Translations under genes and position numbers: made by a program
From: Streptomyces sp. NBC_01351
GTDB lineage: Bacteria > Actinomycetota > Actinomycetes > Streptomycetales > Streptomycetaceae
NCBI RefSeq assembly: GCF_036237315.1
Contig: NZ_CP108356.1
Span: forward strand, 992,001-1,056,000
DNA: 64,000 bases
Reading direction: 5' to 3'
Notes under the pieces: model-generated
The model's database searches: none
What the model was told of the DNA's origin: nothing
Seen by the model: the letters and a program-made list of their open reading frames with translations, nothing else
Shown here: positions 27,404-33,136 of the stretch, piece by piece
Numbering within the stretch: the first letter of the stretch is position 1
Layout: every line of letters begins with the position of its first letter

Positions 27404-29848
27404 TCAGCCATCGTCAGTCGGCATCTCCCCCTCATCGGCCGGGAAGGGGAGCCTCGGCGGGGCGGGCGGCCCGTCCATTCCCATGGGACCGAGCCGCCGT
27501 GGCCGTTCAGCGTGGCTGCCGACGGGGGGCAAGTAGACCTGCGCGTGCCTGAGGAACTGCTGGGAGGCCGCCTCGACCACCTGCGGGAGGATCTGGCCGA
27601 GGGCCTCCAAGCTGGTCACGCCGTTCGCGGCGGCCCGGCAGGCGGCCCGCCCCTGCCTCATCGTGACGGGCATCGTCTCCTCCAGCCGCTCGGCCAGTTC
27701 GACTTCCTTCGCGCGGCTCTGGTGGTCGTAACGGTTCCACGGCACGACCACGCTGACCCATGGGCGGGGATCCTGGTCCAGGGCGGCCAGGCGCCGGCGC
27801 CGGTGCTCGTCCTCCATCGCCCACCGGTCGACGATCAGGATCTCCGGCTCGGTCGGCGGCTGCTTGCTGTCGAAGCGCCTGGCCTCGTCGTCGAAAGACC
27901 CGAGCGTCACCCGGTAGTTGAGGTTCCTGGCCACTTGCTCGGCCACCTGCGCGATGGGCAGCCGGGTCTCCGGATGGTACGGATTCCACTCCAGCGCACT
28001 GTCCCCGTAGTACTCGGGACTGCGCCCCTCCGGCAGATCGTGCCGGGTGGCGGCCGCCACCGTGACGTGGAGGGTGCGGGCAGGGCTCCCCACGGCACCG
28101 AAGGCACTCGGGACCGTCCGGTAGTCGACCGGACGGGAGGGTTCGAGGCGGGCTGCCTCGGCCGTGCTGACGATGCGCCTGGCGAGCTCGTACACGGCCC
28201 GCTCGTACTGGTCCGCGTATCCGCGCAGTTTGATCAGGCCGTACAGCCCGTCGGTGACGTAGCGCTCGCCGAACGCGTTGTGGTTGAACTGCAACCGCTC
28301 GGCGGGCCCGGGCAGTCGATCCGGGGGAACCGGCACCCAGAGTGCGGGCACGATGGCCTCGGCCGACTGGTTGTTCACCGCGCCGTGATGGACGGCGCGC
28401 TGCGCGAAGGCGTACCACTCCTTTCCGCACATTTCGCTGGCGAAGTAGCGCGGCGAGAACAGCGGGACGAACACCCGGGACGTGGCGAGGGCTCGCCCGA
28501 GCCGTTCCGACCAGCCCTCGCCGCTGCGTATCTCCCGGTCCATGAAGCCGGGTTCGGATCCCGCGGGGAGATTCGTCAGCGCCATGACGTGACTGCAGAG
28601 GTCGCGGAAGAGCCGCTCCACCCACATGTCCGGGTCGGGTCCCCCCGCCCCGAACCTCGGCGTGTGCGCATAGCTGAGGAAGAAGTACGGCGACGCGGCC
28701 TCTCGGGTACTCGGCCGGTGCTCGGAGGCGCTCGGCCGCGCAGGGGCCTCGGCGGGACCCGCCTCCACGGGCCGAACCTCGACGGGACGCTCCTCCGCGG
28801 GCCTCGCCACGGAAGCGGGTGGGTGGGACTCGGGCCGTGCGACGCGCCGGCGCTCGACGAGACGGTCCGCGTAGTGCGGCAGGCGTTCACGCAACAGGCG
28901 CACGTCCCGCACCCCGAGCGACGATTGCAGGTGCTCGCGGACACCGGCGTGAAACCGCAGGGTCGGTCCGCCGTCGCTCACGGAGAACAATCCGCTGACG
29001 AGGACCTCGGCCAGGTCGGAAGTGGTGGTGTCCCCTTCGAACAGCTGTGACATCACTTCCAGTTGTGCCAGATCGAGTTGCTCGTAGGCCGCGCACAACA
29101 CGGCCAGTCTGGCTGCCCGGGGAGACGCCGACAGCAGATAGGAGTCGGTCAAGGAGCCGGCGGTACGAGGCGGTTCGGGCGGTTGGGACGGACGCCATGG
29201 GGCGGGTCCGGGCACCAGCAGCGCGTCGCACCCCTCGGACCGTCTCCCTGTCACCGTCCGGGCCCACTGCCCCAGGGCGTGGCCGGTCAGGGAGAGCACC
29301 GGCAGGGGGAGCCACGAGGGTTCGTCCGGTCCGCCCTTCGGCAGGGCATCGAGGAGCGGCGGGCGCCGGAAGTCGAGGTCGGCATTGCTCGTATCCGGTG
29401 CCCGGGGCCCCTCGACGCGCACCGCCGGCAGATCGAGCCCGACGCGGCGCCAGAGCTTCGGCGGCAGCGGGTTGATCAGTGCGGCGCGGGAATGGCGCAG
29501 GCACGCGTACACCTCCTGCCACCACTCGGGACTCCGCCAGAGCGGGGAGGAGCAGTCCGAGACCAGGATCAGCAGTTGGTTCTCGGGCGGGCCCGCCGAA
29601 AGCCGCCCACCCGGGCTCCAGGCCGAAGGCAGGTCACCCACCCGGACGGTGCGAAACGCCCGGAGCCTCTGCAGCGCCCGGACCAGGAGGGCGAGATCAC
29701 TGCGCCACAAGGCCATGGTCGGCGATCGGTCGATGAGCACCTGGGCCGGGATCCTGCCCAGGCCGCCTCCGTCCCCATCGTGCCGGAAGCTCCACAAGGC
29801 GTCGACCATCCAGTCGGACGCATGGGTACGACGGCCCGATCCGCTCAT
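27404..29848 (-). CDS. SAV_2336-type N-terminal domain fused to TIR-like FxsC domain
   Basis: 814 residues, third gene of the operon; ATG at 29848 overlaps the caspase-like gene's stop (ATGA). Residues 30-360 resemble SAV_2336 proteins: a vWA-like opening AQVLIDRSPTMALW, ILVSDCSSPLWRS, LPPKLWRRVGL, then a helical part ending LAEVLVSGLFS. After a Pro/Glu linker, a TIR-like domain begins near residue 387 (YFFLSYAHTPRFG) and includes SPRYFASEMCGKEWYAF with a candidate catalytic Glu at 477. The C-terminal 250 residues match the layout of FxsC proteins. No FxsA precursor or FxsB radical-SAM gene is nearby, so this is unlikely to be the FxS peptide system. A TIR NAD+-cleaving effector or adaptor role is inference. 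Confidence 0.8.
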   Translation of the reverse strand: MSGSGRRTHASDWMVDALWSFRHDGDGGGLGRIPAQVLIDRSPTMALWRSDLALLVRALQRLRAFRTVRVGDLPSAWSPGGRLSAGPPENQLLILVSDCSSPLWRSPEWWQEVYACLRHSRAALINPLPPKLWRRVGLDLPAVRVEGPRAPDTSNADLDFRRPPLLDALPKGGPDEPSWLPLPVLSLTGHALGQWARTVTGRRSEGCDALLVPGPAPWRPSQPPEPPRTAGSLTDSYLLSASPRAARLAVLCAAYEQLDLAQLEVMSQLFEGDTTTSDLAEVLVSGLFSVSDGGPTLRFHAGVREHLQSSLGVRDVRLLRERLPHYADRLVERRRVARPESHPPASVARPAEERPVEVRPVEAGPAEAPARPSASEHRPSTREAASPYFFLSYAHTPRFGAGGPDPDMWVERLFRDLCSHVMALTNLPAGSEPGFMDREIRSGEGWSERLGRALATSRVFVPLFSPRYFASEMCGKEWYAFAQRAVHHGAVNNQSAEAIVPALWVPVPPDRLPGPAERLQFNHNAFGERYVTDGLYGLIKLRGYADQYERAVYELARRIVSTAEAARLEPSRPVDYRTVPSAFGAVGSPARTLHVTVAAATRHDLPEGRSPEYYGDSALEWNPYHPETRLPIAQVAEQVARNLNYRVTLGSFDDEARRFDSKQPPTEPEILIVDRWAMEDEHRRRRLAALDQDPRPWVSVVVPWNRYDHQSRAKEVELAERLEETMPVTMRQGRAACRAAANGVTSLEALGQILPQVVEAASQQFLRHAQVYLPPVGSHAERPRRLGPMGMDGPPAPPRLPFPADEGEMPTDDG

Positions 29849-31944
29849 GACGGCTCCGTGCTCGCGCCCGACACCCTGATCCGGTCGCAGAACGCCAGCC
29901 ATTCCCGGTCGTCCCAGACCAGTCGCAGCACCGCGATGTCCTGGGACGGTGCGCCCCGCCACTCGCACCGGTAGGTGTCCAGGAGGCTGCCGGGCAGGGT
30001 GCGCCAGTGGTCGTCGAGCTGTGCGTGCAGCGGAGGCGCGCAGCGGTCGGCGCCGTGCGGCCACACCAGTACGGGCGTGTAGGCGAGCAGCAGGTCCAGT
30101 AGGCCTTCCTTGTCCCCGGTGGGACGGTGGACCAGCCCCATGGCGCCCGCGTTGTGCCCGCCCTTGGCGAGGAGGGCACGCAATGCCCGTGGATCGGCGG
30201 TCTCCTGCTCCGAGAGCCATTCCAGCGGCGCCGACCGGGCGGTGTGGCTTTCGATCTTCGTCCAGCGGTCGCTGACCGCCGTCTCGGTGAGTCTCAACAG
30301 GCGTGAAGGCGCCAGCCGTTCACTCCAGTGCATGACGACGTCGTGGTGGACCCCGAGCAGCAGGGCGGATCCGGACTCCTCGGGACGCCAGGTGGCCAGC
30401 AGGGCGCTCGGGGCCGCCACGTGGACGCGGGTCAAAGGCAGTTGCAGCTTCTTGGCCTCGTCATGGGCCCACAGAACCGCGCTGTCGAGCAGGTCCTCCA
30501 CGCTCTCGCGGCCGACGGGCCGCTCCGGATCCGGTTGCCGAGGACGGCTGAAGGTGTGGCGTTCGAAGATCTCCCCGTCCAGGAGCAGCCAGGTCTCCAG
30601 TGATTCCGGCCAGCCACCGGCGACCGACGCATGGAGGCTCGCGACCAAGGACAGCCGCTGCTCGGCATGCCGGTTCCGGGCGTGCTCCAAGGCGTCGTTG
30701 AGTTCCTGCCGGGCCTTGATCTCCTCCGCCCACCGGGCCAGTTCGGGATCCTGATCGTTCCGGCCGACCTCACGGACGAGGATCACGACGAACCGGGTGA
30801 CCCACGGCCGGCAGTTGCCGTGGGCAACGGGGTGGTCGAAGGCGAGGTAGTCGAGCACTTCCACATCCGTGTCACACACTGCGGGACGGCCGATGGGAAG
30901 CCGTCGCTCGCCTGCGAACAGGGAGCTGACCGCCCGGCGGATCCGCGGGGTCGTCAGCCCCTCTCCGATCCACCCCCGCAGGAGCTCCACCGTGCGGACC
31001 GCCACGTACAGGTTGTCCGCGGCCTCCGCGGCCCGTTCCCAGGCCGCCCCGTCCGGTTCCGCGGACCGCACGTCCTCCAGGTGACGCTGGAGAGCGCGTA
31101 CGGCCGCCGTGTCGTGAACCCGCGGGACGGACACGGGCGGATGCAGCCCGCCCAGCGCGGAGGCGAGCTCCTCGGCCGCCAGCGGTCCGCTGAGGACGCC
31201 GGACGAGGGGCCGCGGTACTGGGAGTTGTGGGCGAACCAGAGCGGTCCGTCGGCGAAGGGGGCACCGTCCAGGCTCCAGTCCGTGATGTCCTGCCCCTTC
31301 ACCTGCCTTCGCAGCTCCTGCGCGACGCAGATCACCGACAGGGCCTTCTCCTCCCCGGGGACTCCGCGGCGCAGCAGTGCGGTGAGCTCTCGGGCGAGCG
31401 TCAGATCGTAGGCGGGCTGGCTGGTGGCGGCCGCCATGAGGAGCGAGAGGCGGATGCGGCCGTTGCGGGCCCCCGAGGCCAGTTGGTGCGCCGACGGTAT
31501 CGCCCCGGCCGCGTGGCAGGTGTCGATGATGCCTATCAGTCCGCCCACGCCGTGGTGGTCGGCGGCCATGGCGACGAGGGCGCCCACGTCCACGGATCCC
31601 AGGCGTACCTCTTCGACCGACTCGGAGGCCATCAGGTGCAGCGTGCCGGTCCGGCCGGGCACGAAGCCGTGCCCGAGCATGGCCAGGACCAGGACCGCGT
31701 TGCGATCGGCGGCGTGCTCGACCGCCCTCTCCACCAGGCCCCGGATGCGCTCGCTGGTCAGACCGTCCCCGACGAAGAGCGACTCGCCGTCGGGAAGACC
31801 GGGCGAACAGCCGCCCAGCGCTCCGTCCCGGAGCACCTTGTCGAGATCACGCGCAGCCGACTCCAGGGACCCCAGCCGCGGCATGGAATCACAGTGCGGC
31901 GCGATGACCAGCACGTGCCTGCGGGAATCCGGCCCGACCGTCAC
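29845..31944 (-). CDS. Caspase-like (peptidase C14) protease with VMAP-C-like C-terminus
   Basis: 699 residues; GTG at 31944 overlaps the upstream stop (GTGA). Residues 8-230 form a caspase-like domain: strand HVLVIAPHCDSM, helix with ESAARDLDKVL, catalytic His at 92 in LAMLGHGF and catalytic Cys at 143 in IIDTCHAAG. The dyad is intact, so it should be an active cysteine protease. The remaining 460 residues are a helical middle section and a C-terminal region (LLLDGEIFERHTFSRP, GSALLLGVHHDVVMHWSERL, PLEWLSEQE) resembling the VMAP-C module of Streptomyces conflict systems. The tight operon with an alpha/beta-hydrolase and a TIR protein suggests a toxin/effector function activated on infection or stress (inference). 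Confidence 0.8.
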   Translation of the reverse strand: MTVGPDSRRHVLVIAPHCDSMPRLGSLESAARDLDKVLRDGALGGCSPGLPDGESLFVGDGLTSERIRGLVERAVEHAADRNAVLVLAMLGHGFVPGRTGTLHLMASESVEEVRLGSVDVGALVAMAADHHGVGGLIGIIDTCHAAGAIPSAHQLASGARNGRIRLSLLMAAATSQPAYDLTLARELTALLRRGVPGEEKALSVICVAQELRRQVKGQDITDWSLDGAPFADGPLWFAHNSQYRGPSSGVLSGPLAAEELASALGGLHPPVSVPRVHDTAAVRALQRHLEDVRSAEPDGAAWERAAEAADNLYVAVRTVELLRGWIGEGLTTPRIRRAVSSLFAGERRLPIGRPAVCDTDVEVLDYLAFDHPVAHGNCRPWVTRFVVILVREVGRNDQDPELARWAEEIKARQELNDALEHARNRHAEQRLSLVASLHASVAGGWPESLETWLLLDGEIFERHTFSRPRQPDPERPVGRESVEDLLDSAVLWAHDEAKKLQLPLTRVHVAAPSALLATWRPEESGSALLLGVHHDVVMHWSERLAPSRLLRLTETAVSDRWTKIESHTARSAPLEWLSEQETADPRALRALLAKGGHNAGAMGLVHRPTGDKEGLLDLLLAYTPVLVWPHGADRCAPPLHAQLDDHWRTLPGSLLDTYRCEWRGAPSQDIAVLRLVWDDREWLAFCDRIRVSGASTEPS

Positions 31945-32936
31945 CGATCCTCCGCCGCATGGGCCCGCAGTACCGCGGCGACAGGCCCCGCCACCGCCGG
32001 CTGGGCCAGGTACTTCTCCGCCGGATGCACCCAGATGCCGTCGGAGTCCACCCGCCTGCTCACGGGGGCCACCCCCGCCTCGTTGGGTGCCACGTCCCTT
32101 TCCAAGTGGGCCCGTACGGCGATGAGGTCGTCGCGGTCCCAGAAGTTCAGCCAGCTCCGCACGCAGGCGGGCGAGGCCGGCGGGCGGGGCCTCAGCCGGG
32201 GTCGGACGGCCGCACGCATCGAGATGGGGGAGCCGAGCGTGACGAACAAGGGGAGTTCCCCCGCGTGTTCGTGCAGCGCTTCCATGGCCACGACCGTTCC
32301 GAGGGAGTGCGCGACGACCACGCTCGGGCCGTCCCCCAACTCGTCGAGCAGTCTCGCCCTGATCCGCTCGTCCAGGCTCCCGCCCGCCGCCTCCCGCTCG
32401 CCGCGTGCGAGGTAGCGGGCCACCTGCGCCAGTTCGCGCACCATCACCTTGGGGGCGACCCACGTTCCGAGGGAGCGCCACGGCCTCAGTTCCATCAGCG
32501 TGGTGGCCACGTCCAGGGCCTTGCGCAGGACCTGGCCGCTGCCCTGCGCCTGGCCCGCCGGCGCCGTTTGCACCTGGGCGTACTCCAGGACGCGGCGCTC
32601 GGCCCGCTTGCGCTCGGGATCGGGCTCCTCGTCGTTCTCCGCCTCGTTGTCCGCCACCAGTGACGCCACCACGTCGCCGAGCAGCCCGGCCAGGATGTCG
32701 GCCTCTTCCCCGCTCGGACTCCACGTGCCGTCGCCCTGCGCCTGGGGGGCGGCGAAGAGGTCCCCGTAGTAGGCGAACGCCGTACTGACCGAAGTCCCCG
32801 CCGTCAGCCTCTGCGCCTGGTCGTCGTGACCGGCGGCGCGCGTCCCGGCGGCCAGGGCGGCGGACCATTGCCCGAGCTCCCTGGCGGGTTCGCGGGGGCC
32901 GCCGATGCCGTGGACGAACACCACACGTACAGCCAT
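31941..32936 (-). CDS. Alpha/beta-hydrolase, lipase-like, first gene of the caspase/TIR operon
   Basis: 331 residues, no signal peptide. It begins MAVRVVFVHGIGG (oxyanion loop) and has the nucleophile Ser at 211 in VVVAHSLGTVVA; an acidic residue in NFWDRDDLI and a His in IWVHPAEKYL are the likely rest of the triad. The region of residues 60-170 is a helical insertion rich in Glu/Arg. ATG at 32936 with GGGAGG upstream. Cytoplasmic lipases of this form occur as effectors beside caspase-like and TIR proteins in bacterial conflict systems; membrane-lipid attack is possible but unproven. Confidence 0.82.
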   Translation of the reverse strand: MAVRVVFVHGIGGPREPARELGQWSAALAAGTRAAGHDDQAQRLTAGTSVSTAFAYYGDLFAAPQAQGDGTWSPSGEEADILAGLLGDVVASLVADNEAENDEEPDPERKRAERRVLEYAQVQTAPAGQAQGSGQVLRKALDVATTLMELRPWRSLGTWVAPKVMVRELAQVARYLARGEREAAGGSLDERIRARLLDELGDGPSVVVAHSLGTVVAMEALHEHAGELPLFVTLGSPISMRAAVRPRLRPRPPASPACVRSWLNFWDRDDLIAVRAHLERDVAPNEAGVAPVSRRVDSDGIWVHPAEKYLAQPAVAGPVAAVLRAHAAEDR

Positions 32937-33015: not shown

Positions 33016-33058
33016 GGATCACGGTGGGCGTGGGCGGATCACCGCACTAGGATCACGG
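33016..33058 (+). promoter_or_regulatory. Promoter region of the tRNA-like gene with three GGATCAC repeats
   Basis: GGATCAC occurs at 33016-33022, 33036-33042 and 33050-33056, in the same orientation. TAGGAT (33048-33053) would be a -10 placing transcription start within a few bases of the tRNA-like 5' end; no good -35 is seen. The third repeat overlaps the -10, so the repeats could bind a repressor. The region also lies in front of the divergent caspase/TIR operon. Confidence 0.45.
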
Positions 33059-33060
33059 GA

Positions 33061-33136
33061 CGGCGTGTAGCTCAGCAGCGAGAGCACCGACTTGCGAAGT
33101 CGGAGGGCGCAGGGGCAGGACCTGCCACGCCGGCCA
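33061..33136 (+). tRNA. Atypical tRNA-like gene, anticodon GCG, CCA encoded
   Basis: 76 bases fold into a complete cloverleaf with 21 perfect base pairs: acceptor CGGCGTG/CACGCCG, D-stem GCTC/GAGC, anticodon stem CCGAC/GTCGG and T-stem GCAGG/CCTGC. Canonical positions kept are T8, A9, A14, G15, A21, A26, T33, A37 and C48, with G73 and an encoded CCA. The anticodon loop TTGCGAA gives GCG (would read CGC, Arg). The T-loop is GGCAGGA instead of the TTCRANY consensus, and the D-loop AGCAGCGA has C at the position of G19, so the normal elbow cannot form. It is unlikely to be a normal elongator; the A of CCA is the first base of the next gene's ATG. Confidence 0.75.

Follow-up and report, generated by a model that had tools for sequence, protein, structure and literature searches.

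What is a tRNA-shaped sequence doing directly in front of a start codon? The case arose in a 64,000-nucleotide stretch of Streptomyces sp. NBC_01351 (contig NZ_CP108356.1; hereafter the window), in which a first-pass annotation had described a tRNA-like gene with intact stems and an altered elbow. We find, with very little doubt, that this element is the leader region of the gene behind it, abuts its start codon and is tied to the encoded protein. Together, the tRNA-shaped element and the protein point to an undescribed RNA–protein unit in many actinobacteria. How such a unit would work is a more tentative matter, for which we weigh several readings below.

A cloverleaf in front of a 601-residue protein

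The Rfam tRNA model (RF00005) matched the element at 51.9 bits, above its gathering score of 29 (E = 1e-9 in 2.2 kb). This covariance search, which the first-pass annotation had proposed as a check, bore out the four tRNA stems with 21 pairs that had been read from the letters (Table 1). The element ranks 68th among the 76 RF00005 matches in the genome, and R1, a covariance model built from 15 sequences including the window element, scored it at 92.5 bits; ARAGORN did not call it as a tRNA. Folded alone, the element formed the cloverleaf plus two extra pairs within the anticodon loop at −34.8 kcal/mol (z = −1.98), an energy that by itself would not prove the fold. When the first 40 ORF bases were added (117 nt), the minimum free energy (MFE) structure kept the D and anticodon arms and replaced the T arm and acceptor stem, and neither of the two extended transcripts tried folded better than shuffles. 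A chance origin is nonetheless excluded because relatives conserve the fold, so the claim that chance formation is improbable holds on the evidence of relatives and not of energy.

Table 1 Features of the locus, in window coordinates
Feature	Position	Strand	Basis
−10-like box TAGGAT, 7 nt before position 1	33048–33053	+	Sequence; pattern of relatives
tRNA-like element, positions 1–74	33061–33134	+	RF00005, R1
Acceptor stem, 5′ strand, pairs with 33126–33132	33061–33067	+	RF00005, alignment of relatives
D arm, loop AGCAGCGA	33070–33085	+	RF00005, alignment; relatives' D-loops compared
Anticodon arm, loop TTGCGAA, anticodon GCG at 33094–33096	33087–33103	+	RF00005, folding
Variable loop AGGGC	33104–33108	+	A44/G45/G46 conservation in 111 distinct elements
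T arm, non-canonical T-loop GGCAGGA at 33114–33120	33109–33125	+	RF00005, comparison with the genome's tRNAs
Acceptor stem, 3′ strand, G73, C74	33126–33134	+	G73-C74 in relatives
ORF, 601 aa, predicted all-helical protein, ATG one nt after C74	33136–34941	+	ORF, homologues, predicted structure

We compared the element with the ordinary tRNAs of its genome, retrieving 73 of the other 75 RF00005 places, of which ARAGORN called 71 and left 2 uncalled. All 71 called tRNAs have a TTCRANN T-loop in their 3′ part, whereas the T-loop of the element departs from TTCRANY and G19 of its D-loop is replaced by a C following G18, both as first described. The element thus shares with functional elongators a score above the RF00005 gathering value; it lacks their TTCRANY T-loop, and neither the anticodon nor a CCA end is conserved (across 111 elements and 80 loci, respectively). 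Many bacterial tRNAs have no encoded CCA. The 76-nt length and encoded CCA that had been reported are present as letters, but the element proper ends at 33134: the 'CCA' consists of C74, C75 and the A (33136) of the ORF's ATG, and CCA is encoded in 6 of 80 relatives' loci. It had also been noted that GCG would read CGC, a codon that bacteria normally read with an ACG-type tRNA-Arg. The genome does encode a tRNA-Arg with anticodon ACG, which should read CGC, but GCG means little by itself because the anticodon is unconserved among related elements. With its altered elbow, the window element is unlikely to be an ordinary elongator, a view already taken in the first-pass annotation and supported here.

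Stems and T-loop are conserved, the anticodon is not

An alignment over relatives had also been proposed, with lack of stem conservation set beforehand as the refutation; the stems covary and the T-loop is conserved, which favours the element. Every pair cell was paired in the first 15 sequences and 99.9% were in 81 distinct rows, where 9 of the 21 pairs had changed on both sides. Once one ordinary tRNA was included, 12 of the 21 pairs were double-changed, and none of 500 shuffles scored as high. The T-loop consensus is GGCRGNA, with GGC at positions 54–56 in 109 of 111 distinct elements (G54, G55 and C56 in 110 each, G58 in 109). Since GGC itself is conserved, the altered T-loop is under selection and not decaying.

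Around the anticodon the same 111 elements combine constancy and freedom. C32 is present in 106 and T33 in 108, 25 different triplets occupy positions 34–36, and some loops have 6 nt. The variable loop is nearly invariant (A44 in 106, G45 and G46 in all 111), and a Shine–Dalgarno (SD)-like GGAGG at positions 42–46, just 3′ of the anticodon loop, occurs in 104. G73-C74 is found in 89 of 95 elements; the discriminator varies among G, A and T, and the acceptor varies too. ARAGORN called most of the relatives tried as tRNAs (Ser, Arg, His, Pro and others), those called tRNA-Ser being devoid of a long variable arm. Elements occur in tandem, with one to four copies per locus and spacers of 60 nt and more at L228 (where the first copy is a weak match), L231, L345 and L349. 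Neighbouring copies carry different anticodons in 13 of 15 cases, although chance would also make most differ. All three frames occur between element and ATG and an in-frame stop lies within the element in 22 of 80 loci, so the element is non-coding.

The element and one protein family occur together

Clear relatives of the element were found by blastn in 14 of 101 genomes, its own included, whereas the other 12 matched genomes gave short or tRNA-Trp-like matches (partly inspected base by base). The R1 search at E ≤ 1e-12 covered 295 genomes and returned 47 elements, spread over 42 of them. At 46 of the 50 loci from element searches (window included), an ORF of more than 150 aa directly follows the element; L122 and L124 have broken ORF remnants there, and L127 and L131 have no ORF, the contig of L127 ending about 330 nt on. 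For the reverse test, loci were picked by protein homology alone, keeping the best 80 of 184 relatives, and an element lay upstream of the gene in all 80. These loci, from Streptomyces, Wenjunlia, Yinghuangia, Actinomadura and Thermomonospora, hold 95 elements: 68 single, 10 double, one triple (L175) and one fourfold (L204). Carriers of the unit include S. lavendulae CCM 3239 and S. cyaneochromogenes MK-45. The element was likewise present in 27 of 27 genomes matched by a class-wide protein search of 394, in 10 of 10 further relatives of genome G620 (120 searched) and in 6 of 6 plasmid records (Streptomyces, Embleya and Curtobacterium); the four sets overlap. No element accompanies L246, a second and incomplete copy of the protein in G701.

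Two side observations concern the placement of these units. In G254 the unit stands about 587 kb from each end of one contig (L104 and L105), with element and upstream sequence alike, probably a terminal inverted repeat. On two plasmids (L351 and L353) the locus-tag series skips a number just at the element (RS20980, RS33905), which would fit an annotated RNA gene in the complete record.

The window protein belongs to no Pfam, NCBIfam or PADLOC family, and three relatives of 609–778 aa to no Pfam family. Two database searches returned 537 and 1001 relatives; among the best 120 of each, entries with a named source are 'hypothetical' or 'uncharacterized protein', and homologues' N termini resemble the start of the ORF (MDE.., MNE..). 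Predicted models are all-helical and fairly confident; fold searches with them gave no clear match. A branch of ~600 aa (the window protein, L111, L112 and L115) is without the N-terminal ~100 residues that bear the GSRTPVAGLPAWVT motif, which is common to both big protein clades. With a pI of 6.25 against a family median of 9.3 (n = 44), the window protein is not an obvious RNA binder.

Divergent from the unit, the minus strand at 27404–32936 encodes a TIR-domain protein (PF13676), a VMAP-M2 vWA-MoxR-associated protein (PF19965, E = 1e-51) and a weak, below-cut-off alpha/beta hydrolase, which together are a conflict-type cassette. Among the 80 loci the largest shared neighbour cluster is found in only 9. 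A search for bpX3 of the MoxR-vWA ternary system gave 13–14 bits against a cut-off of 27, in 2 of 18 sister-clade proteins.

Promoter-like box and start codon keep a fixed spacing from the element

In the 80 protein-selected loci the ATG follows position 74 after 0, 1 or 2 nt (3, 23 and 54 loci), and there is no room for an SD site between the two. Upstream of the first copies at these loci, to which the window does not belong, 77 of 80 have a TANNNT box 8–13 nt before position 1, and 74 of these also have TTG 16–18 nt further up; base −3 is C in 75 of 80. The box was seen before none of the 15 later array copies and in 0–2 of 80 cases at eight control offsets. In the window copy, TTG is absent at −35 upstream of the TAGGAT box. 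Because the box precedes first copies only and at a fixed spacing, one promoter should serve a whole array, and transcription should start within about 3 nt of position 1 (1–3 nt before it).

Conservation does not stop at the start codon. In the ~770-aa type, the Ala of an A-(E/D)-(Q/K) stretch near codon 5 is encoded by GCT in 62 of 63 cases, compared with 245 of 9643 Ala codons in gene bodies (binomial 8e-98, ignoring shared ancestry). The pattern GCTGAN(A/C/G)AGCAGC occurs in 61 of 80 ORF starts, and the first nine codons of such relatives (for example, L151) hold the rare GCT and the GCTGANNAGCAGC stretch at the nucleotide level. RNA-level constraint therefore continues from the element into the ORF of this type, where the stretch near codon 5 could form a putative small hairpin or a putative pairing with the D arm (GCTCAGC). 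The shorter protein type of the window has no such GCT stretch near codon 5. At the ORF starts of L093 and L185, a TGAGCAG like the codon 5–8 element is kept in a shifted reading frame (MNEDLSS...).

A sister clade has canonical T-loops and distant starts

Nearly all elements at the loci of families f19 and f46 have a canonical TTCGANN T-loop, although L345 (f46) has GGCAGCA. Some of them have 6-nt anticodon loops, and f46 often has two elements in a row with different anticodons. At these loci an SD-like stretch precedes the gene start, which lies downstream of the element. Among 109 tabulated loci, the start lies 21–63 nt from the element in 12 of 12 with a canonical T-loop and 0–2 nt away in 95 of 97 with a non-canonical one; the table leaves out L347, which has a canonical T-loop and a start 95 nt away. 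The two exceptions are Curtobacterium plasmids with a GGC T-loop and an SD-led start 28–30 nt away. Because they break the pattern, T-loop type and start distance, which go together, are not strictly coupled. A tree of 75 proteins places the canonical type on one side of a single branch with support 100; the tree was made by a quick method with a midpoint root, which does not fix the direction of change, and we infer that the canonical T-loop is ancestral. L205 has an in-between T-loop, TGCGAAT. Database protein homologues of the canonical clade (proteins only) come from Jiangella, Kribbella, Amycolatopsis, Nonomuraea, Saccharopolyspora and others.

What the unit may do

We favour, with a probability of about 0.4, the proposal that a co-transcribed tRNA-mimic RNA gates the start codon and also yields a protein-bound RNA. 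The tRNA mimic and the all-helical protein would form one unit that has spread through actinobacteria. With transcription starting 1–3 nt before position 1, the cloverleaf would be the entire 5′ leader, and the folded element would hold the start codon against its 7-bp acceptor stem. The shape of the element might be recognized by the protein itself or by a factor that handles tRNAs. Cleavage of the tRNA type, at the acceptor stem's 3′ end, would then produce a near-leaderless mRNA beginning 1–3 nt before the AUG (leaderless translation occurs in actinomycetes), and the same cut would free the tRNA-like RNA, which the protein would most likely bind. Translation of the protein would thereby depend on what becomes of a tRNA look-alike. 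For the sister clade, whose T-loop is canonical and whose gene start follows an SD-like stretch at least 21 nt away, the RNA would be excised as tRNAs are, leaving nothing but the RNA–protein partnership. Against the gating proposal stand the MFE structure of the 117-nt transcript, which has no T arm or acceptor stem, the folding of both extended transcripts no better than shuffles, the two Curtobacterium plasmids and the pI of the window protein; moreover, the leaderless route depends on RNase P/Z, which the altered T-loop could impede.

The stable association of element and protein fits control in cis and a partner in trans alike. We therefore considered that the element is excised as an RNA gene and acts purely in trans, bound by the protein as an RNP in the manner of Ro/Rsr proteins and Y RNAs, which have a tRNA-like domain; closeness of the ATG would then be mere compaction permitting leaderless translation. 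Although we hold this to be somewhat unlikely, it is nearly as good as start-codon gating because the link outlives adjacency in the sister clade, where starts have their own SD-like stretch. Arrays of two to four elements with some long spacers, the basic median pI and a weak, sub-threshold match to YrlA RNA at L339 also fit it. On the other side, the ATG is held within 2 nt in nearly all non-canonical loci, RNA-level constraint runs into the ORF, and Pfam found neither TROVE nor another RNA-binding family.

It is improbable that the element serves as bait for anticodon-loop nucleases, whose cut would free the start codon or spare the real tRNAs. Here the cell, or a resident defence unit, would sense tRNA-cutting or tRNA-handling enzymes through the capped start codon of an effector, cutting and not a ligand would switch translation on, and varied anticodons and mixed arrays would suit different nucleases. 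The many triplets beside near-constant C32 and T33, the differing array neighbours, the GGAGG next to the anticodon loop and the adjoining TIR and VMAP genes can be read in this way. However, the variation is explained equally by neutral drift if the anticodon is unused, and most array neighbours would differ by chance alone. The clade that has an SD-like stretch of its own carries GGAGG as well, neighbouring genes are not conserved and PADLOC finds nothing. Salmonella YrlA, itself tRNA-like, is uncut by an anticodon nuclease, according to an excerpt of PMC7790460.

A chargeable special tRNA, for translation or for aminoacyl-tRNA-dependent chemistry, is more doubtful still. The cloverleaf, C32/T33 and the ARAGORN calls suit it, as does the reported decoding by a Streptomyces tRNA that has an unusual anticodon arm and lies 5′ of a MoxR cluster (excerpt of PMC9262613). 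Yet anticodon, discriminator and acceptor are not constant, the anticodon loop is 6 nt long in some elements, CCA is rarely encoded, the TTC T-loop is absent in the window's clade and the tRNA-Ser-called elements are without a long variable arm. Finally, a decaying tRNA gene or functionless integration scar, with which patchy presence (42 of 295 genomes) and the four copies without an intact ORF would agree, is already refuted by conservation in the form of compensatory changes, a conserved T-loop and fixed promoter and start spacing.

Relation to known systems

To our knowledge, there is no system in which a complete tRNA cloverleaf is the entire mRNA 5′ leader ending at the start codon, and a full-text literature search returned no such leader tied to one protein family with a free anticodon. 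The unit would represent either a translational switch of a new kind or a new RNA–protein partnership, and it makes testable how far the elbow can change while tRNA enzymes still handle the RNA. In program-made annotations such units can appear as odd tRNAs next to a 'hypothetical protein'.

Ordinary tRNAs (RF00005) share with the elements the cloverleaf, stem lengths, T8, A14, C32 and T33, but the elements have a GGCRGNA T-loop, no constant G19, a free anticodon and mostly no CCA, and are joined to a start codon. In type III toxin–antitoxin systems (ToxIN), RNA repeats also lie directly upstream of a protein gene; here the units are cloverleaves and no toxin family was found, the window protein having no Pfam or PADLOC match to a ToxN-like endoribonuclease. 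The E. coli thrS operator and other synthetase leaders imitate an anticodon arm, and have in common with the present elements tRNA mimicry next to a start codon and possible autoregulation. The elements differ in the whole cloverleaf, the unconserved anticodon and the unrelated protein, which matches no Pfam or NCBIfam family and thus no aminoacyl-tRNA synthetase. Ro proteins are helical-repeat rings.

Two further cases are compared as their excerpts describe them. The B. cereus pseudo-tRNA tRNA-Other is a regulatory element within a longer RNA, outside translation, in some Bacilli (PMC3399842); that is one element, whereas here an element family is tied to one protein. Streptomyces tRNA-Asp-AUC, found on the chromosome arms of 32 streptomycete genomes, supported by small-RNA sequencing and reported to decode GAU, is likewise an unusual tRNA placed immediately 5′ of conserved protein genes, a MoxR-containing cluster (PMC9262613). 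Compared by description only, it differs in its downstream genes, and ATC does not occur among the 111 elements.

In rsr-yrlBA-rtcBA, the tRNA-like RNA YrlA is encoded beside the gene of an RNA-binding protein, and the authors suggest that its uncut tRNA-like domain might inhibit a tRNA nuclease (excerpt of PMC7790460). The YrlA model (RF02553) had no match at the window up to E = 5 and one among 10 relatives' loci (L339, 33.3 bits against a gathering score of 69), and Pfam found no TROVE domain in 3 proteins at E ≤ 1 or in 18 at E ≤ 10. Here, unlike there, the RNA is a bare cloverleaf and an mRNA leader. With a tRNA-like RNA encoded beside a protein gene, Rsr–YrlA is the nearest known system in logic.
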